From Plicaturopsis crispa FD-325 SS-3 (lineage: Eukaryota > Basidiomycota > Agaricomycetes > Amylocorticiales > Amylocorticiaceae), in contig KN832554.1 in NCBI GenBank assembly GCA_000827205.1, positions 3,431,815 to 3,495,814 of the forward strand: a stretch of 64,000 bases of DNA. The letters are read 5' to 3'. The number at the start of each line of letters is the position of its first letter. The stretch's first letter is position 1. Positions 14,893 to 50,928 of the stretch are shown here, piece after piece. The notes beneath the pieces are model-generated. The model was given only the letters and a program-made list of their open reading frames with translations, had not been told where the DNA came from and searched no databases. The position numbers and the translations under genes are program-made.

Positions 14893-17800
14893 ATGTCGAC
14901 AAAACCGAAGCGCGAGTCGTTCCTCCACCGGCTCCGGCGGAGTTCGAAGCAGCCTCCTCCTGCACAGGACGCTCAGTCGTCCTCATCTAGCCACGAGCGC
15001 AAGGATTCTGCGAGCGTCCTCACGCAGACCGCATCCACCGTCGGCGATGGCGCAACGACAACGGCACAAGATGGCACAACGACCCCCAATTTGAAGGGCC
15101 CAAGCGGCGTCGACGGCAACAAGCTGGGCGTACGCGCCGTACGCACGAGCCCCGTGTTCCGCACCGCGCGCACGATCATGGGCGTAGCGCGGGACGCGCT
15201 CGACGGCGTCCCCGTCCCCGGCCTCAAGGGCGCCCTCGGCGCGCTGCTCGCGCTCATTGACACAATTGAGGTGCGCCCCTCGTGTGTAGTAATCAGCATG
15301 TATTGATGTGTGGCTGACTGCGGCTACTGCAGCGCGCGGACCAGAACCTGGAGGACCTGGAGGAGCTCGCGCACGCGGTGCTGAAGCTCGCGAACGTGCT
15401 CGCGCGGTACCAGCACCAGCCGAACTTGCCTGAGCCACTGTGGACGCGCGTGGACGAGCTCTCGAGGTGCGTTGTGCCACTTGTTTTGCGGTTACTTTTG
15501 CGGTTACTTGGGTGTTGACGCGATGGGCTGGGGTGCAGGGAGATCAGCGCGATCAGCACGTCGATCAAGAACAAGTTCGACCGTGGGTCGTTCCGCCGCG
15601 TCGTCGACGGCGCGGGCGACATGGACGACATCGCGCGCATGTTCCGCGATATATCTGCCGCTATTCGGAGGTTCATGGTGTGTATCCGTCTTGCACATAT
15701 GGTGTTGTGTTGATGTGCTCGTGCTAACATCCATACTATTATTGCAGCTTGGCGGTCTCATCCAGATCGAGAAAGATGCAGGACAGGCAGCAGCGGTATT
15801 TACACTATCTCTGTTTTCAAGGCTCAACTACTGACAATATCTGAAGGATGCCAAAACTCTCGTCAACAACAGTTTGTATCTCTTCTACATCACCACACAT
15901 CCTCGCTAACTTCGCTCTAGGTCTACTGGAGAAGCTTCCTAGGGCGCTCGACGCCAGTTTCGAATCCAGCGACAGAGACAGCTGCCTCGCCGGCACCCGC
16001 CAGGAGCTCCTCGTGCAGATCTTCGAGTGGGCAGAGAACCCGCACGGCCACAGCATCTACTGGCTCAACGGCATGGCCGGCGTCGGCAAAACCGCCATCG
16101 CGCAGACCGTAGCGCAGCAGCTCAAATCCCTCTCCCGCCTCGGCGCGAGCTTCTTCTGCGCCCGCGGGAACGAGGACCGCAGCAACGTGCGCAACATATT
16201 CCCTACGATCGCGTACGGCCTCGCGCAGGCGTACCCCTCGTTCTGCGCGAGCCTGCTGAAGGCGGTCGCGCAGGACCCGGATGTTGGGCGCTTTTCGGCG
16301 TTTCAGCAGTTCACGAAGCTCATTGCGGAGCCGTCGCATGGGCTGCCCGCGGGCCCGCATCCCATCATTGTGGTCATTGATGCGCTAGATGAGTGTACAG
16401 ATCTTGCTGCTACCAGGAATGCAATCAAGATCCTATGTGATCATGCACCCTCCCTGCCTATGCTGCACTTCTTCATCACCAGCAGGCCAGAGTCACAAAT
16501 CTGGCTGGACTCTGATATCAGCACTATCCAGTATCTGCATGATGTAGAGGAGGACATAGTGGTGTCTGATATCAGGCACTATCTCACTGTCAAGCTAGGT
16601 GACATCCCTGCTAGTAGGAATCTTTTACAGGACTTTCCAGAGAACTGGCCAGCAGCTTCTGATATAGAGGTGCTTGTGGCTAGAGCTGGCAGGCTGTTCA
16701 TCTATGCTTTCACAGTGTATCAGTTTATAGCCTCATTGGATGCCAATCCCCAGGAGCGGCTTATACAGCTGCTGAAAGCTCCCACCAGCCAGTCAGACAT
16801 CTGGGATGAACCCATTGATGATCTGTATACACAGATCTTGTCTCTGGCATTTGAGACCCGCAGGCTTACTGCTGCAGAATCTAAGATCAACCATGATGTG
16901 TTGAATACTGTTCTTCTGGCATTTGATCCACAGACTGCCAAATGCCTAGCAGAGCTCTTGGGGCTTGAGCAGCATCAGATATCCACATCTATCCAGAGAT
17001 TCCACTCAGTCATTCACATCCCCAAAGTGAAGGACAATCCTATCACAATATTCCATGCCTCATTTTTTGATTATATGGTGGATGCCAAGAGGTCAAAGCA
17101 CTTCCACCTGGATGCTCCTGCGCACCATACTTTCCTTGCATCTACATGTCTAAATTATATGAACAAGCATTTACACCAGAATCTGTGTAACCTGGATGGA
17201 AGGCCCCTTCTGCATGATATCACCAATAGAATGGATGTACCAGATGCTCTCCAATATGCATGTGTCTACTGGACAAGGCACCTAGTTGCAGGTGCAATAA
17301 CACCTGAAAATGTGGATTATGTGCAAGCAGCTATAGAATCTTTCTTCAAAACACATTTATTGCACTGGATTGAATGCCTCAGCCTTATTGGCCAGCTAGA
17401 TACTGCTGTTGCATCTATAGCAAATATGTTTACCTTCATGAAGGCCCATGAAGACATTGACTCAAAGCTTGATTTGTCTGTGGTGCAGTTGATGCTTGAT
17501 GCAGAGAGGTTCCTGTGGCAGTTCATGGATGTCATTGAAACTGCACCTATGGATATATACCACTCTGCTCTGCTGTGGACCCCAACCAGAACAGAGCTAT
17601 ACAAGCACTACACAACAAACATTCCTGACGGCCCTCTGAAGATAATATGTGGTGTCACAGCCTACTGGGGCCCATGCCTGCGGACATTTGTAGAGCATTC
17701 ACAGTGGGTCAGTGCTGTTGCCTTTTCAGATGATGGCACAAGGGTGGTTTCTGGGTCATGGGACAGGTGGATAGTGATGTGGGATGCCAATACTGGGATG

Positions 17801-19237
17801 CTTCAGGGCATGTTTGGTGGCCATAGAGACCGTATAAACTCTGTGGCCTTTTCACATGATGGATCTCGTGTTGTATCTGGGTCTTGGGATAAGACGGTCA
17901 GGATTTGGAATCTCTCAAGTGGAATGCATACCCAGGTACTTGCTGGACATGATGATCAAGTCACCTCTGTCCTGTTTTCTCAAGATGATACAAAGATTGT
18001 GTCAGGATCTTGGGATAAGACTATTAGGATCTGGGATGTGGCTACAGGCAATGTCATTAATGTCTTGGAGAGACATTCAGACATGGTGCATTCTATTTCA
18101 CTTTCCAGTGATGGTACCAAAGTGGTATCTGGATCTGATGACAATATAATCAGAATCTGGAATATCATCACAGGCCACCTTGAGGGCATTCTGGAGGGCC
18201 ATACAGATATTGTTCACTCAGTGGCATTCTCACCTGATGGTACTAAAATCGTCTCTGGCTCTTATGACAAAACTGTGCGCATTTGGAATGCCAAGACAGG
18301 AGAATATGAGAAAATGCTTGTGGGTCATCATGACTGGGTGAATGCTGTTGCATTCTCAGCAGATAGCAGGAAAGTGGTTTCTGCATCTGATGACAATACC
18401 ATCCGCACGTGGGAGGTCAGCACAGGAAGAGCAGAGAGCATTTTAGTGGGGCATTCAGACAGGGTGTACTCTGTGGCATTTTCTAGTGATGGAACAAGAA
18501 TTGTATCAGGCTCCTGGGACAAAACAGTCAGAATATGGGATGCCCATGGCGGATCTGCAGGATATCCTGTCATTAATCAGACCATGCCTGCAGAAGGCCA
18601 CCCACGCTGGGTGAGGTCAATGGCATTTTCACAGGATGGCAAAAGAGTTGTGTCAGGAACAAGTGAGAACACAATTCTTGTGTGGGACACTGACACAGGC
18701 ACTGTTGTCAGTGTTCTGAAGGGACACACAAGGAGTGTTAATTCTGTGGCTTTGTCACCAGATGGCCACAGAGTTGTCTCTGGCTCTCTAGATCACAGCA
18801 TTTGCATCTGGGACACAAACACAGGGAAAGTGTTGAAAAGACTTGAAGGAAATTGGCCCAAAGTGATATCATTGATAGTGGCATTTTCTGATGATGGCAA
18901 AAAGATTTTACTTCAAACTGAGAAAGGGAAGACCTTTCAGGTTTGGGATCCAGTTGCAGACACAGTTCAGAACACAGAGAGCCATGTCAGAGTCCAAACA
19001 GTCCCATTGTTTTTCCTCACAGAAGATGATTATTTACCATCCACACAAATTCAGCCTAAATATTCCCTCAGAGAGGATTGGCTTGTAGAAAGCTCAAACA
19101 ACACTAGGCTACTTTGGATTCCTTTTGCCAATTGTGGAGACTTGATGGAGACACATATCTCTGAGGGAGGACATCTTGTCAGAATATGTCTTGTCAATCC
19201 CTCTGGCCTTATTACTATCATAAAACTGGATTTGTGA
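14893..19237 (+). CDS. NACHT-WD40 NLR-like protein
   Basis: Intracellular STAND NTPase of the fungal NLR group, thought to act in non-self recognition and regulated cell death. Six exons (14893-15270, 15333-15466, 15539-15677, 15748-15795, 15847-15871, 15921-19237) give 1346 residues. Residues 1-240 form a helical N-terminal region (PVPGLKGALGALLALIDTIE, then NLEDLEELAHAVLKLANVLA) resembling the four-helix HeLo/MLKL-type domains seen in mushroom NLRs. The NACHT domain has Walker A GMAGVGKT at 292-299 and Walker B VVIDALDE ending at 399, then FFITSRPES. From about 830 come nine clear WD40 repeats (pattern SVAFSxDGTxxVSGSWDKTVRIW) and a degenerate tenth. Composition changes sharply near 16383. 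The gene appears intact. Confidence 0.92.
17690..18960 (+). repeat. WD40 coding repeats (nine plus one degenerate)
   Basis: Units of about 126 bp encode 42-residue WD40 blades. The string VSGSWDKT recurs nearly unchanged in several units. A seven-bladed propeller needs seven, so the extra units suggest a larger or second propeller, or copy-number change by recombination, as known for fungal NLR repeats. Confidence 0.85.
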
Positions 19238-26435: not shown

Positions 26436-29400
26436 TCAGTGCGAGAACTGACTTAGTTTTTGCATCCTCTTGACGCGGTTTGCGAGAGTTGTCTGCAGCT
26501 CCTGCCGCAGTGCTTGACTACGGGGCGACAAGTCGCTCTGTGATGCAGCTGCAACGAGCACTTGGTCAATCAGGGTGTATGGAAGCCACGTAGCGGATGC
26601 GTTCTTCGGAGGCTCCCGTGCTAGGCGGGCATCCGACTATTGATTTGCATGGCGTCAGTTTGAAGGAGGACGACTTTGCTATGGGAGACACACCTCTCGG
26701 ATAAGAGACACAACATGCTCCAAGGCGTTTTCTAGCACCTCGTAGCGCAGGCTGATGCGCACGAGGTACTCGTGGTGGTGTTTCTGTGGGGTGTCAATCA
26801 GCATTGCATCGCAATATACATGTGCAGAGCGCCTGACCTCCAGTATATGTATCAACCATGGCGGAGGCGGAGAGGAACGATCAAAGCCCAATATTGTTTC
26901 CAGAGTTATCTTGCTATATTTAAAGTCTGTAGCGACATTGTCGTGTCGCTCCAAGGACTGTCGCAGGTAACGCCAGCCCCGATCAGCAGGGGTGCCGGGC
27001 CAGGATGATACGTTATCAGTGAGAAGCCAATCGGAGGTATCCTGCTGGCTGAGATACGACATCGTCAGGAGATGAAACTCAGCGTGAACAACTGTCTAAG
27101 AGGCCTACATGACGGCATCGGGGTTGCGTGAGAGGCGCAAGCATTGGCCGGTAAGATGCGCAAATAAATCGGTCATGTCTACCTGCAAGCTGCGAGCTGT
27201 TGCAATAGCAGTGTTGAAACGGTTCGCCTGTGCCATCCGCAGCACGATCGAGGACGGCGAAAGCTGGAACTCTGTATGAAAGGTAAGGAGGTCAGGACAG
27301 GGAATACAAGCATGATGTCTGACTCAGGACCGACCTCCAGCAGACAACGTGAGAGGATCTTTCTGGACCAAATCTAGCCGCGCCGCCAAGAGTGCATAGT
27401 CGAATTGCATGTCTGCAAGTTCGACAATCTCTGCGTCGTATTTCCCAGGAGCGAATTTGTTCTCAGGTATGTGTTTTGACAACTTTCGTCTTTTGCGAGG
27501 CTGAGTTTCGATCAGCGTATGATGGTGAAGGAGTCGGTCACAAACGTGCGTACCTCGTGGCCGTCATCTGCAGAAGTAGGCATGACAATCCAGGCGTTCT
27601 TCCGCTCGAGCAGCGATATAGCGTTCATGGCAATCATATACGACTCGAGTTGCTCCTCTGCCAATTCCAAGAATGTCCTCGGATCTCCGACCAGACGGTG
27701 CAATTTCCGGGCCCGTTGATACATCGTTAGCGCAGCTTTTCGTCTTCCGTTAATAACCGAGAAATGGAGTGAGGAAGAGAAAGGAACCGACCATTGCGGT
27801 AGTCTCCGCGGAGAACATACCAAGTGTAAAGGATCTTCGAGTAAAAGGGCCGGATGCGCGGGTCAACATTGCGCACTTTGAATGCGAGGGCGTCTTCAAC
27901 TTCGTCTGCGAAGCTTGCAAAGTTGTATGTCATGAGCTTCTCGACGGCGTTCTCCTCGCACATGCGGTACACCAAATGGTTTACGCATTCGCGTTTCCTA
28001 TATGAGATGTTATTGGCCCGGGTCAGTACCGACAAACTGAGAGACGATGAGTAATGCTTACAGTTTGTCCGACGGGGTAGTGATCAAAGTAGCGTAGGCA
28101 TCATCAAACAGTCCTAAATTGGTGTAGCCGTTTATGATGTTGAACCGCAATGCATACTCGTCTGTGCCTGGAGGGGCGACCGACAACGCCATTTGCGAGA
28201 ACCGGACGTCGTTAAACGCGAGTCCGGCAGATTTGAATAACGTTGCAGCGTGTATGTAGAAATTGTAGTCAGAGTCAAATAACTGAGCGCCGGGAAGGAC
28301 AGCAGCGAGCGCTTCTTGATCATCGGCGGTCATACTGTTTTCAGTCGCTAAGTCGAAACGCATGAGTTAAGTGGATACAAATAGAGGTAGGCAGTACTCA
28401 CCGAAGACGCCAGCAAGTTTGTCCATCAGATGGGCCGCATCGTCTGCACGTCCTACATTCAACCACAAACGCGCCATAACGTAGCTGACACCGGCAGTAC
28501 GTGGCAGCCAAGCAAGAAGCTCTCGTGTTACCTGGTGATAACCAAGCAATCGCAGTTGCTCACAGAACAGCACCTCTGACTTGGTCACCAACGCAGGTGA
28601 CGTCGATTGGAGCAATCCTGTCGTGTCGAGGAAATAGTGGGCAGCACTGGGGAGCGCCTCGCTGTCTCCAGGCTGTGCAAGCAGCCCGTAAATAAGAGAG
28701 TGCGCAGGAGACGAGCGTGATCTTGTTTGCGAGACCTGCATGTCGCGCATGTATGCCACAACATCGTCCGCAGCGTCGTTGGATGTACCCACGGCAGCAG
28801 GGACATCTGCAGCCGGCTGCCGTGCTACGTAGCGAAGCATGGCGATTCCACGGAAGACTGAGAATACTTCCGCCAGCAAAGACGGGTCCCAGAGTTGTAA
28901 GTCGTCGGCAACGAAGAAGAGGAAAGTCATGAGGGAGAGACAGAGCTCATACCGCGCGTTGATCGAGGTCGAGACATAATTCGCAGTGAGGGCTCTTGTC
29001 CAGTGCGAACTGTTCGGCGGAAGGAGTAACTCGATTTCGTCTTCTTCCCGTTTTACTTCTGGAACGACGTTGGCGACGATGTCGAGGATGATACGGGTGG
29101 CTGGGTCGAGTTCGTCTATACTCGCTAGGCGCCCGCCTATCCAGCTTTCTAAACCCTCCTCCAGTCCTTCCCGAAAGTGTGAGCGTTGCGCCTGGTCCTG
29201 CACAATGTCCGCAAAGGAAAAGGCAATCTCCTGATGCATAATATCGACCAGGCGGTTTTCGATGTTAAGCACAAGCGGGTTGCCCAGCTTCGTGTGCAAA
29301 GTCCACACAATGTCAAGCAGTGTAAATGGAGGATCTAACGCAGTTCCGGCCGCCAGTAGTCGATGAAGCCGGAGTGGTAAATCCTCTATTTCCAGTGATC

Positions 29401-31081
29401 CTACTCGTTCTCGCTCCACGACAAGTATCTTGCCTTTGGGATCGAACTCATCGACACCCAGGGCTAAAGGCCATCTCGCGCTCCGTTCGACCTCCCGACA
29501 CCGGGCAATGAAGCCTTCCCAGTCCCTTTTCAGCGCATTCCAGTAGTTGGAATGCTGAGGCACCCCGGTGTGCGGATCGCGCACGAGATTGACGGTGCAG
29601 CCCACCACTGCGGCTATGTTTTCGCCCAACGTAGTGTAGGGAGTCGTTAGTTGAGGAGGGGGCGGGCCGGGCAGCGATAGGCAGGCCTGTGTGTACTGAT
29701 CAATGGCCGTGCGGAGCGTCAACGAGGAGAACGTCCCGGGCCTCATGATGGCTTCGAGGAATTTATCGGTCAACGAGCCAGGCGAAAGCAGGAGCTCGTC
29801 GAGATACGCCGGGGTTAGTTCCGACTCCTGTGCATAAGTCGCCGTCCTCCACGCTTCGTGGCCAGATTCGCGGCCTACCAAGTCGTTCGGGTCAAACACC
29901 GTGTATTCCACAGCAGATTGGCCTTGCCTGTCCCATAGGGTGTAGAGGGTAGTACCGTGCACCATGAAGTCTTGCAGGTGGCAATGTGCACTCGTCCGAG
30001 AACATTCTATCATTCCCAGTTCCTCGAGTTGGTCGTTCATTGTGCTGAACAACTGGAAGAAACCGCCAGAGGATGACGATGAAGCAGGAACAAATGCGAG
30101 GACGAAGGGGTGTTCGCCTTCGGACTCCATAGAGAATATCCGCAATAATAGTTGATGTTCCGCATCGAGTAGAGTCTGAGGTTTGGGGGCGTTCGTGGAT
30201 GTGCTGGGAACGGGAGTCGATGCGCGGCCGGAAAACGTCGAGGACAACTGCTTTGCGGCAATGCAGCCACTTCTAGCTGTCCAAAGCCGAAGCATGCGAT
30301 CTCTCGACAGTGTCCATACGTGACCGATATCTGTGGGTTGAGGGTGGGTGGCCATCGAGATGATTTCGGTACCGTCTGACGGCCCCGAATGCAAGAAGGC
30401 CGTTAACGACGTCAAGAAAGACGTGTGCTGGAATGGAAATTCTGACCATTGGTCTGCGAGAAGTAGAAAAGGCTCTAAGTCGCGAGTATATGGACGCGAA
30501 GATGCGCTCTTACCATTGTGGCTATCGTCCCCCAAAGATTCGGTTTCCAAACGCAGTAAAGATCCATTGGGCAGGCCTATGATTACGCAGTGCGTTCCCT
30601 GTATTTGAACGAGGCCACTGACTTCCTCTGGTATGCCTTTGATGAGGTATTCACGACACCAGTTGCTACCGACGTGGTCCTGCCCAAACTGGCCACCCGA
30701 CCCCAGTGGCAGCACCAAACGATACAGTGAGCCGGCGCGTGTCACCGCAAGCACATGCAGCTCGTTTGTGTTCCATAGGAAGATTGCGGGATATGAGAGC
30801 AAAGCCGACGGGAAGACAAAGCGGATTGGCGCGGTCTCGGTCGACGAGAGAGAAACTAGTTCGAGGATGAGACCTCCGTGAATGACGCGTAGCAGAATGG
30901 TCCCCGTTATCTGAGTGTTAAGCACAGACGAGTAAATGGCATGTTCAGCTGGCGGATCAGATTGTTTTGGAGGTGGTGCGAGAGGTGTATTGCGACGCGA
31001 CGTCTGGATCGGTATGGACGCTATTTGTGACGAGGGAAAGAGGGACGAAAGCTGTGACGCGACCAGGAGACCTTCATCCAT
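26436..31081 (-). CDS. NUP120: Nucleoporin Nup120/Nup160
   Basis: Scaffold nucleoporin of the Y (Nup84/Nup107) complex of the nuclear pore. A large first exon (31081 to about 28391) encodes a beta-propeller half with GHVWTLSRDRMLRLWTARSG, the region best conserved in Nup160. The alpha-helical half follows through several short exons: ATENSMTADDQEALAAVLPG, YALRFNIINGYTNLGLFDDA, VNHLVYRMCEENAVEKLMTY, ILYTWYVLRGDYRN, AALTMYQRARKLHRLVGD, MQFDYALLAARLDLVQKDPL and finally WLPYTLIDQVLVAAA, ending KRMQKLSQFSH. About 1,300 residues, normal for the family. The 3' end converges on the Zn2Cys6 gene across only about 270 bases. Borders of the last four introns are approximate. Confidence 0.88.
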
Positions 31082-33533
31082 CGTAAGGCCTGCAAATCAA
31101 CGTTCAATGAAGATAGATAGTCTTGAAATAACATAGCAGGACTCACGTCAACTTTTGAAGAGACAGTTCAATAAACTTGTTCGAGGACGCGGACGCGCCA
31201 CAATTCGACAAAAAGTCACAATTTTTACTATACTTACTGTTTAGTTTATCTTTTTGGTGAGGATTCTGTGCGAAACTCACGCGATTAGATCCAAACTTGG
31301 ACTGATTTAGGATCACGATCTCCGCAAGTTTCATCGTGACAACATACAGAACGCTTGGTACTCTGCTTGCCACTCTATACCGGCTGCCTGTCGCAGACTG
31401 CTTACGGGCAATCTACAATCTTTATGACCGCTCCCATCTTTACTTAACCTGCTCAAAAGTTGTAGCCTGACTACCATAAACCACTGGCACTCGTAACCCC
31501 CGGAACCACTGAGCGAAGCCAGTCGCAGGCGGTCAAGGCGACAACTAGCCTGCGTGTGTGTGTGGTCAATGAACTGAACCCGCATTAGTATATGTTGCTC
31601 CATGGATGTGCGACATGTCGACGATCGTTTTCCATGATGCAGCTGCGATTCTGAAGTTTTGGAGGCGCGTAAATCACGAACAATTGGGCCATACACAACT
31701 GCATGTGCACCCTTGCCATGTCCCACTTGAGTTTACAGTCTTTTTGGTAAGCTTGCTTGTTGCAGTCCCTGATGGAGCTTTGATAATCCCTGTAGGCAGG
31801 AAACAGAATCGGGCCATCTGGCGTTGTGCCCGAGCCTTGAACCCCAACCACATATCCCGTATCCTCCCCCCGTCCTTAAGGCGCCATACGAAAACGCGTT
31901 CCCGCATAAATCCACGTTTGGAAGAGCAATGGGCTCAGAGCAAATAGTGGTGGCCCCGTCGTGCCCAGTGAAAGTGCGTAAGCTTGTCGTTCTACCTCAC
32001 GGCAGCGCCTCGTTTTGTGCGTCGCGGAGCAGCGGGTGTGCGCTTCCGGAAATGGAAGCGTAGTAAAAGTGTGGACGTTCCTCGATATTCTGGGGCGTAT
32101 GACCTAGTCGACGAACAACTTTGCCTGTGAATGCATTTACGGACAGTCTCGCTGGATGGTGAGCCATTTCTCTGCAGTCGTCGCCGGTTTACTATTGATC
32201 TGGCAATTAGTACGAGACTCTGTAAAGCACCGCGTCGCATGACATCTGTGCGAAGTGCTGTTCGAGGTTACCGCTCTTACAAAGTGCAACGCCTTTTAGT
32301 GTCACCTTGTAGGCTCTTAGCCTCCCAGAGTCCTCTCGGGCCCTTCCAAAAACCCTGTCGTGCTCAATCTTTTCGCCGAAGGCGAACTCCGTGCACTGAC
32401 AGGCATTGTACCGCCTCGTCGCCGACGTTCAATGCAGTGACCGTGCTTCCTGTGATGTCAAACGTGTCTCTGCATGCCCGTTCCCTCCGGCACGTAGTTC
32501 GTACTGATCCATATCCCTCTTACAACGTTACATGGGGACCAACAAGTACGAGGACGCCCAAAGTGAATCGTCCCTGACTCGCATGATTAGATCTAGAACT
32601 TCACGGCACAGCATTCTTGATCGCAAATCACATACTCGACGCTTTCCTCGACGCCGCGGACCCTGCTCACCACGAATTCATCGCCACCTCCTACACTTGC
32701 TCTGTGCCTGCTCCGCTGCGATCATCTGAATCTCAATTTTTGTTCTACACGACCTACTTAAGCCTTCTTGCAGGTGTCCTCGCTGTATCTCGCTGCCATT
32801 GCCAGGCCTTGGCAGTAGTTTTGATCAGCAATTCAAGACACATGATAATGATATGATCAGCGAGTGCATCTGTCATTGCTGTCGATGTGTAGTAAGGTGC
32901 GTAACTTGTCTGACGACGATATTCCAAGGCAGACTCAAACCGATGTGTGGCAACTGGCAAGGTCACATTCTACGTCTCATCTGTGATGAAGCAAAAGACT
33001 GACACCCGATTCCGATAGTGAAAGGCTTTTTCCCGCACCTCTACGTGCTTTTCTGCAGCCTGGGCCCTGGGCCCTGCGACTCGTGAGCATCTTCGCGAGC
33101 GTTGCACTGTGCAGCAATCATTCCAGTCTCCACCGCCACGGTATACACGGCATACGCGTCATCGTGATCCATCATTAGACACATGAAAGATGATCTGGAA
33201 GCCGTCCTATCGGTTGTCTAGATTATGATTGATTATACCATGGGCAGCCACTCTATTCAGTAGCACACCGCTTTATCCGGATCGCGGACCAGTGAACACT
33301 ATAAAAGACAACATATCTCAGGCATGTTTCTCTAACCTCCCATCGTCAAGTTTTTGGGTGTTCACTTTCGCTTTCTTTTATAGGACAGGTACCGGTTGGT
33401 GAGTCGCCCGTGTACTTTGTCCGTGCAATGTATGCAAGTACTTACGACAATTCATGCAGCCTTCCTCAGTTTACATTCATTCAACACAATCACAACATCC
33501 ACGAACCCACTTCCAATCTTTCTAACGATAACC
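31082..33533. other. 2.4 kb intergenic desert
   Basis: No recognisable gene on either strand. Frames up to about 150 codons exist but show no known motif and no plausible gene structure. The right end holds the promoter and 5' leader of the secreted repeat precursor. Confidence 0.5.
33300..33306 (+). promoter_or_regulatory. TATA box of the repeat-precursor gene
   Basis: TATAAAA about 230 bases upstream of the ATG at 33534, followed by a C/T-rich start-site region. A GT...CATGCAG intron in the leader (about 33380-33460) would explain the distance. Confidence 0.55.
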
Positions 33534-34860
33534 ATGTTCTCTAAATCCCTCCTCGTTTTCGCCCTTGTCGCGACCTCTGCGTGCGCCGCGCCTACTCCTG
33601 CCATGTGAGCCTTCTTGCACACTATTTACTTTCGGTGGATTGCTTACGCTAGCTATCTCAGCAACGAGTACCAGGCGCGTAACGTCGCTGTTACTGGGAT
33701 CACCACCGACGGTGGAAGTCCCTTCGGCAGCATCCCCAGCAAAATCGCGGAGTTCATCGGCGGTTTGCTGAAGCGCGAATTCGACGACCTCGAGGCGCGT
33801 GCCCTCATTGCAGGCCCCGCGGAGCAAACGGGCAGCCCTTTCGGCAGTATCCCGAGCAAAGTCGAGCAGATCATCGGTGGGCTTCTCAAGCGCGAGTTCG
33901 ACGAGCTTGAGGCGCGCAACGTTGCTGTCACTGGTATCACTACCGACGGCGGCAGCCCCTTCGGCAGTATCCCCAGCAAGATCGCAGAGTTCATCGGCGG
34001 TATCCTCAAGCGCGAGTTTGACGAGCTCGAGGCCCGCGCCCTCATTGCAGGCCCCGCTGAGCAGACCGGCAGCCCCTTTGGCAGCATCGGTAGCAAAATC
34101 TCGCAGATCATCGGGGGGCTCCTCAAGCGCGAGCTCGACGAGCTCGAGGCGCGTACCCTCATCGCAGGCCCCGCGGAGCAAACGGGCAGCCCTTTCGGTA
34201 GTATCCCGAGCAAAGTCGAGCAGATCATCGGCGGGCTTCTCAAGCGCGAGTTCGACGAGCTTGAGGCGCGCAACGTTGCTGTCACTGGGATCACCACCGA
34301 CGGTGGCAGCCCCTTCGGCAGTATCCCCAGCAAGATCGCAGAGTTTATCGGCGGTATCCTCAAGCGCGAGTTCGATGAGCTCGAGGCGCGCAACGTTGCT
34401 GTCACTGGTATCACTACCGACGGCGGCAGCCCCTTCGGCAGTATTCCCAGCAAGATCGCCGAGTTCATCGGCGGTATCCTCAAGCGCGAATTCGACGAGC
34501 TCGAGGCGCGCGCCCTCATCGCAGGCCCTGCTGAGCAAACTGGAAGCCCCTTCGGCAGCATCCCGAGCAAAGTCGAGCAGATCATCGGCGGGCTCCTGAA
34601 GCGCGAGCTCGACGAGTTCGAGGCACGCGACCTTGCCGTCACTGGGATCACTTCCGAAGGTGGCAGTCCCTTCGGCAGCATCCCCAGCAAGGTCGGCCAG
34701 ATTATTTCTGGGTTGTTCGGACGTGAACTGAACGAAGTGTACGTGATTCGATCATAACTATACGAGCTATGAACTTGCCTGACTGCTTTCTTTCAGTGAG
34801 ACCCGGGAGCTCGTCGCGTCTTTGACGATGGCACGCCGTGCGATTGACGAACTTGATTGA
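33534..34860 (+). CDS. Secreted Kex2-type tandem repeat precursor
   Basis: Three exons (33534-33604, 33662-34738, 34797-34860) give 403 residues. The first 19 residues (MFSKSLLVFALVATSACAA) are a signal peptide. Nine tandem repeats of 37-40 residues follow, each with the invariant core GSPFGSIPSK, a hydrophobic IIGGLL or FIGGIL, then Lys-Arg, then EFDELEAR. Two unit types occur, one starting ALIAGPAEQT and one starting NVAVTGITTDG, in the order B A B A A B B A B. Lys-Arg is the cleavage signal of the Golgi protease Kex2, so eight sites would release about nine related peptides, as in U. maydis Rep1. The last unit has Gly-Arg instead and is followed by ELVASLTMARRAIDELD. Function unknown: repellent or surface peptide, signal, or ribosomal peptide. 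No modifying enzymes lie nearby. Confidence 0.88.
33681..34730 (+). repeat. Nine 111-120-bp coding repeats
   Basis: Units are nearly identical at DNA level (for example GGCAGCCCCTTCGGCAGTAT recurs), pointing to recent unequal crossover or gene conversion. First and last units are the most divergent, as expected if homogenisation acts on the interior. Confidence 0.9.
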
Positions 34861-35391: not shown

Positions 35392-38300
35392 TCACGAAAG
35401 CAGTCGAGTGGGATCCAGTTTAGATGTCCATGATTGTAGTTCCTTGACGCTCGGTGCCGCAAGAGCGTACGAGTTGGACGAGGTGAATAATGTGAAAGAG
35501 TGTGGTTTCTGGTGGGCGTTTGAATTGCATTAGCGTCGAAAAACAAAGCGATGCACCGGAGCTTACCCCGAGAAGAGATGATTTGAGCGGGTCGCTTTCT
35601 ACGTTGACGCCGTTCAGACTAACGACGCCAATCTCCTCGACCTCATTGGAATGGCTATACATGTGAAGATAGGGCCTGTTGTTCCAGAATGAGCGTTGCA
35701 ACCAAAATAACCATAGCAAACGACCGAAATACCTTCTAAGAACAAACCACCGCTTTTCCCAGATGTTTTGACTTGCATCTGTCATAACAGTGAGGTAGCC
35801 CTTCTTCGAGGGAGCATCGCTAGAAAGATGTATTCCATAAGACTGTATACGACTGTAGTCCAAATGTGCACACCTTCTCGGAACTAGCTTGGTATTGGAG
35901 ACGAGTTTGATGCCGTCAAGAGTTTCAAGGTCGACGGTAGTACGAGTTGAAGACGAGGCCGAGTCCTCGGTTTCGGATGGCTCTTGACTGAGGACGATCT
36001 GAAGGTAAGGCCAGTTAAATCGTTGATCGCACATTCAAGGTTGAAAGAAATGTACCTCTCCGCGATGCCCAAATCGTTTTTGCCATAACTCCAAAGCCTT
36101 CTGCAATAGCTCCTCGGTACGCCAGGCGACGGATGCCGAGTCCGACGGCGCAGGGGGAAGAGTGGCAAGGATGACGCGGATGGCCTGGACGTCCGCCGCA
36201 CGTCGCTCTGTCAAAACAAGTCTGGAATAGTCCTGCACTACCGATATGCCCCGTGCCTTCCAAACGCCCAGAGATTCTTCTCCCCGAACGTACTTCTCCG
36301 AAGTGTCGAGCCGCCACAGGTCTTTGGGCGAACGTGTAAGCGGTGGCGACAGACGGACGTCGAAGACGCCACTTGTCTTAGTTAGAATTCGCGTGGACCC
36401 AAGGAAGCTGATGAACTTCGAGGGCGGTCGTGCATCTCGAGTTTGCATGGTCACCGCGGCATCCATGTTGAATTGTATTGGCTCCCTGCAAGTCTCGACA
36501 GCGACAAACCAATTTAGTTGGAGGAGGATGCGTTGATTTGATGGCGTCACTTTGTTCAAGAGGAGCGAATCGTGGATGCTGGAGTCCCAAAGGGCTTCAG
36601 CTGATAATGTTCCCGTACCGTCGGGTTTGAATTCTAGAGTCTGGTCCTTGAGCAGCGGCAATGTCACCAACGCTTTGGACGTCGAGTCGTGAACTCTCCC
36701 TTTAGGGTCTAGAAGGCGCACATTGCCCATGCGCACCTTCGTGAACTCTATCCACGGTAGTTGTCGCCCAGAGCTAGACGCGAGGGACAGTATTATGCGG
36801 CGCTGTAATCCCTGATGCAACGAGAAAGAGCCAGGATCAAGCGAGCCTTGGGAGACCACCGGGACAGGCTTGTACTGGCCATCAGGACTGAGTTCGCATA
36901 TTTGTAACCAAGCTGCGACATCGTGCGCCTGTTCCACGACAAAGTCTGTCTCGGAACGCCGCATAGGAGGTGCGGGGATAGCCTGCATCTCGGAAAAGGG
37001 TGTAGGGCTTTTTTGTTCGCGCAACTCGTCCCATCGCTCCATCCGCTCAACATACGTAGGCCGTACCGTGGCAAAAAATTCGATCGGCGCATAACCCTCC
37101 CGTAGATGGTTGAGGACCTTTGACGTGACGACGATCGAAAAGCTGCGACGGAACTTCATGTCCGACAATGAAGACACGTCCATATCCAGGGTGGACGAGG
37201 GGAATACTTCTTCTGTGACAAGCGAGGGTCCGACAAAGGACGACAATCGCACCTGCATGTGAATGGCGGAATAGTCATGCGACGACAACCCCTTCACAGA
37301 GTCGACTGTAAGGAAGAAACTAAGCTTGCTCCCGGGCGGAACAGTTCCTGGTACTGGCGACGATGAACGCGTGGATGCGGTAGATTTGCTGGTATGCTTC
37401 TCTGAGACGACGACATTGACGATTTTGATCTCGACGCGACACGAGCCGATGGCCTCCGCCGTATATCGGCAAAAAATCGGCACCACGGATGTAGAAGAAA
37501 GTCTTCGCGAAAGGGGGGCAAGGGATATTAGGCCGTTACCGATAAACGAGTACTCGGGTGGAGGGGAGTCGTAGAAAGGTTCGTCGGAAGAGAAGTGCTG
37601 CGTGTAGGAGGGCCGATCTATGTACGTCGTCAAATTGCGCATCCGTTGTAACTGTTGCTGTAGGCGATCTAGAGACCACACATATATGGCGTTGTGGCGT
37701 TTGTCGAGTACTTTGACAGCCACAGACGGCTGCGTAGCGGATGCGAGGACGGGGTCCGCAACATCACCAAATTCATCCAGACCGGCGATGGTATCGACTG
37801 CTGACGCTGGCGTAGCCAATGATCCCCCTGAAGCGATGGTGAAATTGTACGACACATCCTTCCGCAGCTCCTTGCTGGAATACTTGTGAGCAAAGAGATC
37901 GAAAGATGATATTCACCAGCGTACCTGATGATGTTGGCCTCCTTGATAATAACAGCACTTGACAGGACGACCTCGGCCATTGAAAATGCTCGGTGCGCCC
38001 TCCATCTATCCAATACTTTGCGGATCAGCCGTAGCTGCCGAGCACTGTAGATTACCGGCTCAAAATCGACCATGTCAACGTCTGTCTCCCCTCGGGCCCT
38101 CGCGTCAATGAGGCGCCGCATCTGCGCTTGCACCATCTTCAGCTGGTGCTGCATATGGTCCTTCTCAACCTTGAGATCCTCCGCCTCAGTCGATTCTGTG
38201 ATAGCCTGTAATCGCGACTCGAGTTGGTGCTGGACATCCTTTAGTGTGCCGTCTATAGCAGGGCTCCCGTTCGCATCCAAGCTTGTGTCGTCTGTCGTAG

Positions 38301-41236
38301 CGTCACTCGATATGGGCCGACCCGACTCGCTCCAGACGTCGTCCGCTTGACTCAGGCTGCTCTCAGGCCGCGGGCCCAATCTGTGGTCCCGCATCGTCTT
38401 GACCTTCGTGATTTTCTCGAACAGCTTGTTTAGGTCATCGTCGGGTAGATTGTCGAGGGTGGGGTCCAAGCCAAGGCGGGCGAAGGCGGCTTCACGTTTC
38501 GCAAATGTCCAATCTACGTCGACCTGGTCCGTAGACGATGCGGGAGAATCGGGGCGAGTCGCTGGCGAGGAGATACCCTCGGCCTCTAGATCAGGAGCAG
38601 TGAGGCTTAGCTGTAGGCTAGACTTCGCCGTAGCCCTATCCCGTTGTTTCCGGACCTCCTCGGGGTTATTGAAACGGAAGACATGGTTTTCACCTATCAT
38701 AAGATCAGTCCCACGCATTGGGATTTTGAGCGTCGTACATACCGAGAATTATTCGGAAGCCCGACCGTAGTTTGTAGGACTGTATTGTAGGCCGTAGTTA
38801 GATAAATAGTTGGCTATGACGCACATAAGGCACTAGATTTACCTGATCTGGTTGAATCTGCTTTCCGTTCAGGAACTGCAATGCGAGGAGAGATGATCAG
38901 CCGCTTGTCCATCCAGAATATAGAAGAACATACTGTGACGCTGTCTGGCATTGAATGTAGCGTAACTTTGCCATCGTTGTTTTCGAAATAGCAGTGCTCC
39001 TCCATAATGTTGTCACCGCTAAGACGGATGGCTGCGCCCTTCGTGCTGTCGAGTCGTCCGATCTGGGCAGGGGGAGAGGCCGTTTGCTCGATGTTCGTCG
39101 TAGTATCATGATCACCACCTACCATTGTCTTACCGGGCTTGATCTGGTATATCAAGCATTCACTCATAAGAGGGTCTGCAGGACATCGGTCAGTTATACA
39201 GCAACACAAGGGGTGAAGCAGTATACTCGCCTTCGTTCAAGTTGACTAGATGGGGCGTCTTCTTGGGTGTGTGAACTCCGACAAGATTCTTCTCCACTGT
39301 AATGCCCAGTTCTTCCAGCGCCTTTTCTCGCTCCTTTTGTACTTCTTGCGTCCTCGCCATCTTCTGCTCCCAGGTTTCGTTGAGTCCCTGCATGAGCTTC
39401 TCGCTGGTCTCCATCTGTTCCTGCAGCTCGGCCTTCGTGACAGTCTTGAGCTTGCCATCCTTCGTCTGGTACGTGACTTTCTGCTTTTCGGGCGGGACTT
39501 TGGGATCGTACACGTCTTCGGCCATCGATCCAGTAACGCGAGCTGTTCATAGCATGAGAATAACATATTAACGGACACGACCGGTGAGACCATACCTCGA
39601 AGCATCTCAAGTTCCTCCTTCAATTCACGCACGAGTTTCGCGTTGGGGTCCTCGTTAACCACGGCCTTATTCTTGATTTTCTTAGCCTGGTCTGCATACC
39701 GCAGTGTACTCAGCGTCTCTTCGTAATCTGCAGGGGCAATAGCCGCAATCATGGCGGTTTTCGAGTTTCCTCCCAAACTGTCTTTGAGTAGCCATGTCAA
39801 GACCTAGGAGGGCGTAAGAAGAGAGCTACGGAATGAGGAAATAGACATACAGAGTCACGGTAAGGAATGAAGTCCTCCGCTTTAGGTTTCCCCTTCTTCT
39901 TAGGTCCACTGTCTCCGGCGCTTGCGAGGGCCAAAGCTGAGATGACTTTACCCAAAGTCGTGAGGGACTTGTTGATTTGGGCACCTTCTTTCAGACGCTG
40001 CCCAGTAGCGCCAGTAGAGTTGGCTCGTTCGGACCCTGCCAAATCGACCAAGCTAATGAACTGTTAATATTGCACGCGTAGCACCCGTGGGGATATAATC
40101 ACCTGATTCTAGACACTTTCTCGGTATCCAGGTTCGTGTCGGCATCATGCTTTTTCATCGTAAGAAGGAGCGTGAAGACAGCATGCGAACGAGATGAGCT
40201 ACAGAAAGGTTAGACGACTGCGGATATTAGAATTGGGCATTTCACGCACGTCTCGTTCATGTTGGTAGCAGCGACTGTCCTCGCCTTGTTTCCTTCGTCC
40301 ATAAGCGTCATCATTTCATCATAGCTGTTCACCACAAGTTTCGAGAGATCCTCCACATAGGGTCCCAGACTTGGGTGTTCGCGGACTCGCAGATTGCCCG
40401 TGTTTTTCGGGTTGAGCAAGTCGCGGACTTTCTCATTGTAAATCTATGTATGAAGTGAGGAAATCGCACATTGACGTGTACACGGGTTAGCGCACCTCGA
40501 TATACGATACTTCGACGGTAAAACTAGTGTTGGGATCCATCGACCGCTTCGTCTCTACCCGCGTGAAGAGCTCCGAGCATGTTAAGGGAATAATTCCCTT
40601 GTCCGCGCCATCTATGGAGAATGTCAGAAGATATTTTCTCTGTCTGCTTGGACAACGTACACCCCATCATACTATTTGAGGGAAATTAGTCAGAGGAAAC
40701 GGCAGAGAAACGAAGGCTCTCACCTATATGACTTTCCCGATCCTGCAAAAATTTCAGCACATGAATTACGGGCAAAATTGTAGGCGTACCAGTTTGCCCA
40801 TCTTTCCAAGCGTTGTCAGTCTCGTCTTCAATGATAACAACGCGGTGTCACTCACAAGCTAAGATACACGCATTAAACCCATTAAACCCATGGTCTAACA
40901 ACTCTTTCCCCAGATCGTCGTACAGGGTTTGCTGAGAACAATACTGTGGTTCGTCGCGAGGCCCTGCCGACCAATAGCTCTTGTCAAAACTGAAAGCCAT
41001 TGGCCTCCGCTCTGTGGCGCGCTTAGAATCCTGCGCAGACCCCGCTTCCGGCGGGTCGAGGAACGTCTGATTCCCTTGCATACGAATAAGCGGCTTTGCG
41101 CCGCGCGCAAGCTCTGTAGCATCGGCGCGTGAGTGCGTGCGCATAGGCACGAGGATGAGGACCGAGACGTACCGCGCGAGTTGAGAGGCCGGCATCGCAC
41201 GACGACTTTGATATTCCCGTCGCCTGCCTCCGCCAT
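35392..41236 (-). CDS. Kinesin-3 motor (Unc104/KIF1 type)
   Basis: Microtubule plus-end motor carrying vesicles and endosomes in hyphae. The ATG at 41236 opens [19 protein letters not shown]. Motor motifs: P-loop [30 protein letters not shown] (switch I), [14 protein letters not shown] (switch II), [20 protein letters not shown] and [18 protein letters not shown] neck coiled coil follows, then an FHA domain ([46 protein letters not shown]), the kinesin-associated and DUF3694 regions, and a C-terminal PH domain ([48 protein letters not shown]) ending [10 protein letters not shown]. This is the full Unc104 domain order, about 1,600 residues. The P-loop is split over a 12-base exon (40790-40801) and a 19-base exon; one border just after it (40.66 kb) could not be resolved. 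Confidence 0.94.
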
Positions 41237-42657: not shown

Positions 42658-45600
42658 ATGAACGTTCGTCCCGATGCTATGCTTCGACACCAGGGCATGC
42701 CTCCGCTCTCTCAGAACATGCTGACCATGAACTCCCAGCAATTTATGCAATCCCAGCAGAACCACCCTCAGACTCAGCAGTTTTCACCCAGCCACATGAA
42801 CGGCCTTGTGCCCATTCCGAGTGCCAATCCACCGATGGCACTCATTGCCGGTCAGCCCCAAGCCATCACCCCCGCACAACGATATCAGCTCCAGCTCAAC
42901 CAGGCCACCGACCGAAAACGCCAGCAAGTGCTCTTGCAACAGGCTCAGGCCGCCCAGGGTCTAAATCCTTCAGGCGGCGGCGGCGGCGCGCCAGGGCAGG
43001 GGCCGATGCAGAATATGGCATTCCCCAGCACCATGATGCCACAGCAGCCAGGAAACCCGCAGCTTCGACGCGTTGCGTCGCAGCCTACGCCGCTAAATCA
43101 GTCGGGCGCCATTCATCCGGGACAGGGCGGAGGCATGAGCATGGGCATGAATCCTCAGACAAGTATGCCCGCACATCTACGGCAAGCGCACCAGCAACAG
43201 CAGCACTTACAGCAACAGCAGCAACAGCAGCAGCATCAGCAACAGCAACTCCGCATGCAGCAGCAGCAGCAGCAGCAGATGCAGGGTCACATGCCTCCCG
43301 ACATGGCCATCGCGCTTGGCCACAGACAGCCGATGCCTCTGAACATGAATCGTTCGGCCTCCGCACAAGCGCACCTTGTCGCGACGATGCCGCAGAACAA
43401 CTTTCAAAACCCCATGTCGCTCGTGCAGCAGCAAGCGCCATCCTCTTCCCCGCGCCCCGGCGGGTCCCATTCGCAGCCGCATACGCCTTCGAACATAATG
43501 ACTACGCCCGTTCCCGGTCATGGATCTGCCGGCCGACCACAGATGACCCCCGACAATCCGATGTTCATGAACTTTCAAAATCAGCAGAATCAGCTCCAAA
43601 ACTATAACGCTAATCGAATGCCTTCGGGCAATAATCCACAATTTTTCGTCCCATCGTCTGTTTCCCCAAACAATCCTATAGACGGCTTATCATCGCTGCC
43701 GGACGGAATGGGAAACGGTGGGCGGCAAAATTTTCTCTCGACACCCGCCCAGCAAATGGAACAGATGCGACAAGGGAACGAAGGTTTCGCGCCGCACTAT
43801 GGCATGCCACCGCCACATTCGAACGCACCACCGCGTCCTCCGTCGCACAATACACAGCATCCACCGGCGCCTCTCGGGAGTCAACCGCAACAACCCCACC
43901 AGCACCACTCTCCTCATTCATCTGAACACGGCATCGGTCACCACAGACCACCGTCTCAGCCCCAAGGTCAACCTGTTCGACCGTCGTCGCAAGCAGGCCT
44001 CTCGCTTACGCCGCGCGGGATGCATGCTCAACTGCCTGGTAATGGAAGCCTTCTTCCCGCAGCACGGATACCTGGGCCAGCTTCATCTCAGCACCCTGGA
44101 TCGCATATCATTCCACCGTCCGCGCCGAACCACAGTGTTCCCGTTGCACCGCGTCCGCCGACGCAACCGCAACCAGTCGCAGGGCCGTCAACAGCGCCTG
44201 CGCACTCAATGCCAACGCCACAGTCTGAAATTGCTGCCAATCACGCTGCATTATTAGCTCAGCAGCGGCCAGGCGTGTAAGTTGAAGATTTTCTCCGAAC
44301 AAATAAAATAGACTGAACGATTAGTCCCAGCTCGACGTTCCCCGTTGGGCTTGGACAAGGTCTCGTTCGATTGTTGCAGTTCAGCGGGATACTTGCAAGC
44401 AAGCACAAAGCGGTTTGTCGTTACTTCTATTCCGTGGCCCACTCGACTTATTCGAACCGTAAACGTCAGAAACTTCAACTATCATATTGGGATCAGTTGG
44501 TGAAGGAGTATTTCACGCCCAAGGCGATGATGAAGTTCACGCTATGGAAGGACAATCAGCGCAACGAAGCGAAACCCTTCGGTAGGCTATCACACTCATC
44601 CATACTGGATGAGACGATGCTAAAATACGAGAAACTGTAGAAATTGGCGTCCCAATACTCCCCCGGTTTTTTCTGGTAACCAGCCAGGCTGGCGTTGATT
44701 CCATGACGCTCTCCCTGGATGGTGCCCGTGAACGATTATTAAATCCAGGGCATGCAGTCGTGGAGTGCGTTACGGCTGTATGGACATACAAGTATACCAA
44801 CGGCTACACCGTCACCTTACGAGGACCCCTCACCGCCCACGTTTTACTTGTTCCCCATGCTGCGCCGTCCGCTCAGCAGGCAGCACAAAACCTCTCGTAT
44901 TCGCTCAAATTCGAGAACCTCCAGTTCGATGCTAATTTTCACGACAAGTACATCGCGCTGGAGTCGGTTATGGGGCAGCGGGTGATGGAGTCGCCGCGGA
45001 TGCGGAATGCTCCGACACCGACTGCAAGTGGGACCGCGGCACAACAACGGGCTGAAGATAAGAAATGGGAGGAACCACGGGTTACGATCGAACGCGCGTC
45101 GATACCTGGGGAACCTGTCAATGCGTTCGGTATCCCACAGGCGACAATGCGATGCTTAGAGGTTTGCATTTTTTTTCTTCCTTACACCTTCAACTATTCA
45201 CGTCTCATATGATACAGCTTGCTGAGAGTGTTGGGCAAATGACGGATCTAATCTCATTCTCGAATGAGCATCAATTGGGGCCTCTCGGTGCGTCGAATGG
45301 TCACGGTATATACGGCCATTTTGTTGAGATTAGTATTCACCGTCCACAGAAGCCTTGAACAAATTTGCGGGAGAGATTCGGAAAAAGACAGGCCAACCAA
45401 TCCCAACTCAAACAGCTCCGCCTTTCGTCGTCCCCGGCCCCAGCAACCCTGGTGCGCTCGGGTCGTATTCGAATTTCTCGAGTGCCAATGGCGCACCAAC
45501 GACACCGGCAAACTCACTTTACCCTAACACGCCGGCATCTGCAAATCCACCGACGAGCTCGAATCCCCAAGCCGCGCCGGCAACGGCTTCTCCAAAAACT

Positions 45601-49953: not shown

Positions 49954-50928
49954 ATGGCGGACATCACGGCTCAATACGAGTACCATCGAATGCAGGTATT
50001 CGCGTTTCTCTCTTATCATCGTGTTCCCTTCGTTAAACCATCGAGTTCTTAGTTTATGGGCAATCTCAACGACGTCGCTGCGCTCTTGCGCAGAACCGCA
50101 GAATCTGCCGAGCAGCTCAACAAAGTAATGGCCCAAGCAGGGCCTGGGTTCGTTATCAATGGTGGCACCAACAACGTCAATAACGGCCACCAGGCTGCCG
50201 CCGCCGCCGGCAGGTCAAAACGAAAGGCAGAAGTCCTCGAGGATGAAGCCGATGGAAAGAAAAAGACGCGGAAGAAGAGGGAGCCCAGAGACCCTGATGC
50301 CCCCAAACGCCCGGCGTCCTCGTACATTCTATACCAAAACGAAGTTCGCAAAGACATCAAGGAGAAAAACCCTGGATTGTCGAACTCGGAAATTCTGGCT
50401 ATCATTGGCAAGAAATGGGCTTCCCTTTCGGATGCCGACAAAGCTGTACGTACGGTCTAGTGCTTAACTTACCTCGCGCCTTATTCACGTTCTCCCCTAG
50501 AGATATAATGTCGCAAATTCGGAGGCCAAGGCGAAATACCTCACGGACAAGGCGGCATATGATGCGAAACAAAGCACTGACGCGGAGAGTCCTGTTCAAT
50601 CTGAACCTCCACCCCCTCCGGTGCGTATCGTGTAACGACTGCCTGCGCACCTGTAGTTGATCGTCGGCCGCAGCCCCCTGCAAAGAAGGCGAAGGCAGCT
50701 CCAGCACCGGCTCCAGCACCGGCACCTCCCAAATCTGCACCTGTAGTCGCTGAGACGTCCAGCTCGGAGTCGAGTGATGAATCCGAGACCGGAGAGGAAG
50801 AGTCTTCGGCTGACGAGGATGAGGAGGAGGAAGAGGAGCAGACTCCAGTGCCAGCGCCCGTGGTAGCGAAGACGAAGAAGGCGGCTGCGCCTACACCGGC
50901 AAAGTCCAGTAAGAGGGTGAAGGGTTAA
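49954..50928 (+). CDS. HMG-box chromatin protein
   Basis: Nuclear DNA-bending protein with one HMG box. The ATG at 49954 starts MADITAQYEYHRMQ; after an intron come FMGNLNDVAALLRRTAESAE and a basic stretch KKKTRKKREPRDPDAPKRPA. The HMG box is ASSYILYQNEVRKDIKEKNP, SNSEILAIIGKKWASLSDAD, KARYNVANSEAKAKYLTDKA, with the expected aromatic and basic positions and an intron inside it at about 50447-50500. The tail is Ala/Pro/Lys-rich, then acidic (ESSADEDEEEEEEQ), then basic (SSKRVKG). An acidic tail plus one box resembles HMGB/Nhp6-Hmo1 proteins; the N-terminal helical segment is more like Hmo1. About 280 residues. Exact orthology is not clear. Confidence 0.9.

Follow-up and report, generated by a model that had tools for sequence, protein, structure and literature searches.

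KEX2-processed repeat proteins (KEPs) form an established class of fungal precursors, with 1193 reported from 226 species in one survey (PMC6339444) and 7878, of which 2560 were without a homologue, in a second (PMC7329392). They are common in fungi, and the task of most of their products is not known. A protein is counted as a KEP when it has an N-terminal secretion signal and no transmembrane segment, when three or more similar fragments lie between its KR, RR or KK sites, and when its repeats are no longer than 100 amino acids and account for 15% or more of its length. More than one motif type (two or three) was recorded for 79 of the 1193 (PMC6339444), and KEP-derived peptides have been detected by mass spectrometry in Agaricomycetes (PMC9769878). 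Rep1 and Hum3 of U. maydis have 12 and 17 repeats, respectively, of 31–55 residues, which are amphipathic and have Kex2 sites between them (PMC4617103), and the Rep1 peptides are described as linear and as undergoing no more than a single additional processing step (PMC9769878).

The gene described here (the focal gene) lies in a window of 64,000 nucleotides, which is the whole stretch of DNA that was analyzed, and its product has eight KR sites and nine similar units, with 37–38 amino acids between KR sites and the units making up most of the 406 amino acids. In common with the KEPs of Agaricomycetes it has a putative signal peptide, near-identical units between dibasic sites, an acidic stretch after each site and no further domain that could be accepted, and linear products would be expected from it. 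It differs from them in that its units are longer than the commonest Dikarya class of 9–24 amino acids (PMC6339444), its spacer is flanked by a second, single-Arg site, and a paralogue of the whole gene exists from which dibasic sites are absent. Since the class is established, and both multi-type precursors and orphans are known in it, the focal gene is a further orphan KEP of a known class, and its two unit types in one precursor are not unusual. A full-text search for the core motif returned no paper; the supplementary tables of the KEP surveys, which lie outside such a search, may list an orthologue. What goes beyond the print that we found, and is the most interesting point, is the paralogue that is free of dibasic sites.

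The other systems resemble the focal gene in part. Rep1 gives amphipathic peptides of ~35–53 amino acids, compared with the 37–38 between KR sites here (~30 if the LEAR site is also cut), and Hum3 has a hydrophobin domain, which the focal protein lacks; the comparison with Rep1 and Hum3 is one of descriptions. The LxxR motif of the effectors with a Kex2-processed pro-domain (K2PP) fits the LLGR, LEAR and LVQR sites of this family (PMC8528282), but in those effectors one pro-domain is removed, whereas in this family the motif is repeated along the chain, between the cores.

Dikaritin cyclisation needs a Tyr or Trp in the core. If the focal protein were the precursor of a dikaritin-type RiPP, Kex2 would cut out the cores and UstYa enzymes would cyclise them. 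The layout of repeats and Kex2 sites in the dikaritin precursors (ustiloxin, asperipin) is indeed like that of the focal protein, and the asperipin-2a precursor also has more than one repeat type (PMC7329392). However, the cores here are ~30 residues long and have no Tyr or Trp, and UstYa was not found in the 64-kb window or on contig C14, where the paralogue lies, by an intron-blind search that gives a lower bound. We consider this origin very improbable because there is no UstYa match nearby.

Gene Structure

The earlier note had placed the gene at 33534..34860, and these limits held, with the ATG at 33534 and the TGA ending at 34860. The following features were assigned.

33534..34860, plus strand: focal gene, ATG to end of TGA, three exons, 406 amino acids after splicing
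33300..33307, plus strand: TATA box, within the 5' region homologous to the paralogue
33399..33459, plus strand: probable 5'UTR intron (GTGAGT..ATGCAG), the preceding GGTACyGGTTG/GT being common to the paralogue (slash, splice point)
33534..33604, plus strand: exon 1, encoding the putative signal peptide (~18 residues, ending in SACA) and the beginning of the pro-region
33605..33652, plus strand: intron 1, with an alternative acceptor at 33661 that would give three residues fewer
33653..34738, plus strand: exon 2, end of the pro-region (..YQAR), nine units and start of the tail
34739..34796, plus strand: intron 2, with a paralogue intron at the equal position and reading phase
34797..34860, plus strand: exon 3, tail ETRELVASLTMARRAIDELD (first E codon begins here) and stop

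The spliced protein thus reads as a signal peptide, a pro-region ending in YQAR, nine units and the tail ETRELVASLTMARRAIDELD. The signal peptide was judged by eye from a lysine at position 4, a hydrophobic stretch and the cut SACA/AP, and its cut region (A.A/APTPA) is common to the paralogue. Support for the last intron comes from the paralogue, where intron position, phase and tail agree; at the place of intron 1 the paralogue frame is uninterrupted. Upstream of the ATG, 33300–33533 aligned with the 5' region of the paralogue at a score of 105, compared with a maximum of 34 in 200 shuffles, the left boundary at 33300 having been set by hand.

Opposite the repeat gene, an antisense frame of 409 codons is open (33522–34751, minus strand), as is a second antisense frame of 379 codons (33653–34792). 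These frames are most likely by-products of a repeated G+C-rich unit.

Repeat Units and Their Constraint

Nine units were identified, as in the earlier note, five of 40 and four of 39 residues when the ninth is counted with its spacer.

33681..33800, plus strand: unit 1, type N, KR at 33771–33776
33801..33917, plus strand: unit 2, type A, KR at 33888–33893
33918..34037, plus strand: unit 3, type N, KR at 34008–34013
34038..34154, plus strand: unit 4, type A, variant GSPFGSIGSK, KR at 34125–34130
34155..34271, plus strand: unit 5, type A, KR at 34242–34247
34272..34391, plus strand: unit 6, type N, KR at 34362–34367
34392..34511, plus strand: unit 7, type N, KR at 34482–34487
34512..34628, plus strand: unit 8, type A, KR at 34599–34604
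34629..34724, plus strand: core of unit 9, diverged type N, with an LFGR end in place of LKR

Each unit joins one of two first halves, NVAVTGITTDG (N; units 1, 3, 6, 7 and the diverged 9) or [AT]LIAGPAEQT (A; units 2, 4, 5 and 8), to a common half, GSPFGSIPSK...IGG[IL]L. Two peptide types had been described as alternating in the earlier note, with an invariant GSPFGSIPSK; the two types are there, but they follow one another as N A N A A N N A N rather than in strict alternation, and the motif is exact in eight of the nine units, unit 4 having GSPFGSIGSK.

The proportions of synonymous and nonsynonymous differences (pS and pN) were computed over 29 codons, comprising the common half and the spacer, for the 28 pairs among units 1–8. 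Pairs of the same type (n = 12) gave a pS of 0.361 and a pN of 0.038, and pairs of different type (n = 16) gave 0.508 and 0.094; the pairs with unit 9 (n = 8), counted apart, ranged over 0.71–0.83 and 0.18–0.22. As the density of synonymous differences is several-fold greater than that of amino-acid differences, the units cannot be very young duplicates and must have evolved under selection. The KR codons, AAGCGC, are identical in all eight units, as are three others among the 29, an identity to which we attach no weight.

The units contain no C, H, M, W or Y, and typical N and A cores have one Lys, two acidic residues and a hydrophobic end. Hydrophobins are defined by an eight-cysteine pattern, and there is no cysteine in any focal unit. 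With respect to the amphipathic character described for Rep1, the helical moment of the focal cores is modest, 0.45–0.49, and is at the upper end of the shuffles (reached by 1.4–5.2% of 2000); in the paralogue core the moment is 0.28, a value reached by 7.5% of shuffles. The conserved glycines would speak against a simple membrane helix.

Whether the open frame might be a chance repeat or a low-complexity artefact was also considered. That the antisense strand is open as well is what would be expected of a repeated G+C-rich unit, and Pfam returned matches to the protein that we take as spurious: eleven families appeared at E-values up to 1 (betacoronavirus lipid-binding, Latarcin and others), ten of them without a single passing stretch, and the HIRAN match (E = 4.6e-10, above its cut-off) covers one ordinary unit. 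An artefact should not, however, combine synonymous drift with conservation of the protein, nor have a whole-gene paralogue with a common intron, tail and 5'UTR, and this explanation is scarcely credible.

A Paralogue without Dibasic Sites

When a 79-residue query was run against the genome of the same organism (33.2 Mb in 49 contigs), six matches fell within the focal gene and one further place was found, on contig C14 (E = 4.1e-4, 43% identity). The gene at that place (L007) encodes a precursor of 342 residues with a plan equal to that of the focal gene: a signal peptide, MFPSTSLLVLALAAAPAFA, cut before APTPAP and followed by DSR; eight units of the form [D]LKATNIQAGGGLP[IV]GSLS[TL]LGQFGLGLLGR; and a tail, ETRELVDSLALVQRMIDELD, after an intron equal in place and phase to focal intron 2. 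The reverse search with L007 recovered the focal gene at E = 3.1e-10. In the tails 14 of 20 residues (70%) are identical, with an E-value of 0.08 for the short piece alone. As in the focal gene, the L007 protein is kept while synonymous sites drift (pS 0.377, pN 0.018; 28 pairs). We read the two genes as products of a whole-gene duplication, and not as a chance likeness of repeats, because the tail, last intron, TATA box and 5'UTR are common to both. The 499 bases upstream of the aligned 5' stretch, scored separately, were without similarity to L007 (score 20, compared with a maximum of 27 in 100 shuffles), and ~500 bases on the downstream side likewise gave no alignment above 100 shuffles.

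No third paralogue was found with four protein queries in an intron-blind search in which only the best first-look candidates were scored. Searches for relatives gave 72 pattern matches among viral contigs and 44 among prokaryote genomes, of which none was confirmed, and these two collections say nothing about fungi.

The spacers distinguish the two genes. In the focal protein they are EFDELEAR or a close variant, eight residues long, acidic and with Arg at both bounds, and the one after the last core is ELNEVETR. In L007 they are DDAPH (four), EPEPDAPH (two) and ELEELEAR (one), with DINEIETR after the last core, so that a length of eight is kept at the end of both paralogues. The suggestion in the earlier note that EFDELEAR is a spacer gains support from these comparisons: the octapeptide is bounded by Arg, DDAPH or EPEPDAPH occupies six of the L007 places, and the two paralogues differ freely in their spacers but retain one core plan. 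On the other hand, spacer and core are conserved to about the same degree among the focal units, and an inert linker would not require this.

Arginine Sites and a Possible Cutting Code

The focal protein has nine dibasic pairs, comprising one KR in each of units 1–8, as had been noted, in register, and one RR in the tail. In 20,000 shuffles of the mature sequence the mean number of KR was 0.92 and the maximum 6, compared with the eight observed. An aliphatic residue occupies P4 at every one of these sites (LLKR at five, ILKR at three), and P1'–P2' is EF or EL at all eight. L007, in contrast, has no dibasic pair in its 342 residues. All eight of its units end in LLGR where focal units 1–8 have [LI]LKR, and focal unit 9, with its ending GL[FL]GR, has the form used by all eight L007 units, so that GR is shared by the two proteins; in the tail, LVQR of L007 stands against MARR of the focal protein. 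Between the paralogues, then, the Arg is constant and the residue before it differs. Every Arg of the mature proteins (21 focal, 12 in L007) lies at the boundary of a unit or of a spacer or in the tail, and none lies within a core. LxxR accounts for 13 of the 21 and 10 of the 12; in 5000 shuffles of each protein it occurred 1.8 and 2.3 times on average and never more than 8 times in either, a test that overstates significance given that repeats are not independent observations.

Kex2 has been described as taking Arg at P1, preferring Lys at a variable P2 and favoring Leu or another aliphatic residue at P4, with LxxR as its expanded motif and Arg, Thr, Pro, Glu and Ile as five alternative P2 residues (PMC8528282). 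By this rule LLKR and ILKR should be strong sites, and weaker cutting is conceivable at LEAR, VETR, LLGR and LVQR; of these four only VETR, with Thr, has one of the five listed alternatives at P2, the others having Ala (LEAR), Gly (LLGR) or Gln (LVQR) there. Some products of Coprinopsis KEPs expressed in Pichia were apparently cut after a single Arg (PMC9769878). A kexin P-domain was matched once in the genome, on contig C7, and a dipeptidyl aminopeptidase domain (DPPIV_N) at one place, on C13, both numbers being lower bounds from an intron-blind search; three kex2 genes have been reported for Coprinopsis and other agaricomycetes (PMC9769878).

Taken from sequence features, these observations favor, at a probability of roughly 0.7, the reading that the focal gene encodes a secreted KEP-type precursor with Kex2-type cuts on both sides of the spacers, and proteolytic release of the focal peptides as such appears quite likely. 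The Kex2-processed precursor proposed in the earlier note is thus retained in its KEP-type form, on the grounds of the architecture, the in-register KR, the aliphatic P4, the acidic P1' and the kexin P-domain match. The octapeptide form of the spacer, which is met again outside the focal repeats as ELNEVETR after the last focal core and as ELEELEAR and DINEIETR in L007, also speaks for the processing model, as do the confinement of Arg to boundaries and tail and the conservation of the units despite synonymous drift in both genes. Against a KEP model stands L007, with no dibasic site at all: it follows that the classical Kex2 site is not needed to keep the repeat plan in this family, and at a [KG]R position the KR could be the variant of a single lineage.

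The same absence of dibasic sites from a protein with eight conserved units, together with focal spacers as conserved as the cores, would suit a repetitive wall or surface protein that coats the hypha uncut or partly cut, the boundary Arg being a leftover or serving later shedding. Such a protein is quite unlikely here. It leaves the eight focal KR in register with an aliphatic P4 and the confinement of Arg to boundaries or tail in both proteins unexplained, the units have no Cys for cross-linking, and a PDB sequence search returned only one chain, at E = 0.16, which is not a match.

With the KEP-type precursor as the favored reading of the focal gene, the pair offers a natural comparison, in which the core plan and gene structure are alike and dibasic sites are set against single-Arg LxxR sites. 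We tentatively suggest a paralogue-specific cutting code, in which the focal protein would use [LI]LKR and LEAR, and L007 mainly LLGR (LxxR), so that peptides of the same plan might differ in the efficiency of their release or in the kexin that releases them. If this were true, a whole class of repeat-peptide precursors of fungi, free of dibasic sites, would escape KEP surveys that require such sites. By their stated criteria both large surveys (PMC6339444, PMC7329392) require dibasic sites, and a precursor of the L007 type is therefore uncounted there; a third study sought repeats without this demand, but only in proteins of fewer than 300 residues (PMC9769878). With this pair it can be tested whether the kexins of mushrooms share out their substrates according to P2, and whether a group without dibasic sites is missing from the present KEP counts.

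Proposed Release and Function of the Peptides

We propose that in the late Golgi a kexin would cut the secreted chain after [LI]LKR, and would also cut, probably less completely, at the far end of the spacer, where LEAR forms a weaker LxxR site, after which a Kex1-type carboxypeptidase would trim the basic KR ends. Nine linear cores of ~29–32 residues, of types N and A, would then be secreted, and the acidic octapeptides would be discarded as linkers. Where LEAR stayed uncut, the products would be of 37–38 residues and would retain the acidic head.

As to function, our guess is an extracellular action of the peptides, most likely on the surface of the hyphae in the manner of the U. maydis repellents, given that the core is mildly acidic, has a hydrophobic IGG[IL]L end and occurs in many near-identical copies, as a bulk product would. 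This bulk surface role is drawn by analogy with the Rep1 peptides and is itself doubtful. Expectations for function should be modest, since six Coprinopsis KEP knock-outs gave no phenotype and synthetic Coprinopsis KEP peptides had no antibacterial action (PMC9769878).

The same cuts could instead release pheromone-like signal peptides that a receptor perceives, or agents directed at other organisms, a proposal that rivals the guess at function and not the processing. Most of the characterized KEP products take part in biotic interactions (PMC9769878), and the EPEPDA that follows LLGR in two of the eight L007 spacers resembles the Ste13 dipeptide runs of alpha-type precursors. In the focal protein, however, the XA/XP signature of Ste13 is absent after KR, and cores of ~30 residues exceed the 9–24 amino acid class of the alpha pheromones (PMC6339444). 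The mating pheromones of basidiomycetes are, moreover, of the a-type. On balance a signaling or biotic role is unlikely, and the hyphal surface remains our preferred, if doubtful, site of action.

Genomic Surroundings

After removal of overlaps the window has 68 open frames of at least 120 codons, of which 20 were scanned with Pfam and 13 matched. Among the neighbors are the following.

15845–19234, plus strand: frame of 1130 codons with NPHP3_N (NACHT-like) followed by WD40 repeats, fungal NLR-like, left of the focal gene
28370–31096, minus strand: Nup120 nucleoporin, left of the focal gene
36038–37912 and 39249–39803, minus strand: frames of a kinesin-3-like gene, right of the focal gene
44613–45209, plus strand: LIM-binding protein, right of the focal gene
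50053–50457, plus strand: HMG-box protein fragment
60450–62067, minus strand: RGS and DEP domains in adjoining frames, probably one regulator of G-protein signaling

No biosynthetic enzyme was among the 20 frames scanned with Pfam, and scans of the window with Rfam (at the gathering threshold) and for tRNAs were empty. Genome-wide, UstYa (DUF3328) gave six exon matches, a lower bound from the intron-blind search, the nearest being on contig C1 at ~0.9 Mb. The UstYa-domain matches at C1:2554546-2555217, C10:439447-443881 and C4:1216395-1216547 mark possible dikaritin loci elsewhere in this genome.

Two further gene families were seen in the genome. Hydrophobins were found at two places, C16:105905-106081 and C16:265294-265455, with the Pfam model and again with one of them as the query, which is a lower bound. 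Two would be few for an agaricomycete, and an argument from few hydrophobins to a Rep1-like role of the peptides was set aside because the count is only a lower bound. Class II peroxidases gave nine exon matches, one of which was compared with solved structures and was closest to the versatile peroxidase VPL2, a likeness that suggests a white-rot agaricomycete.
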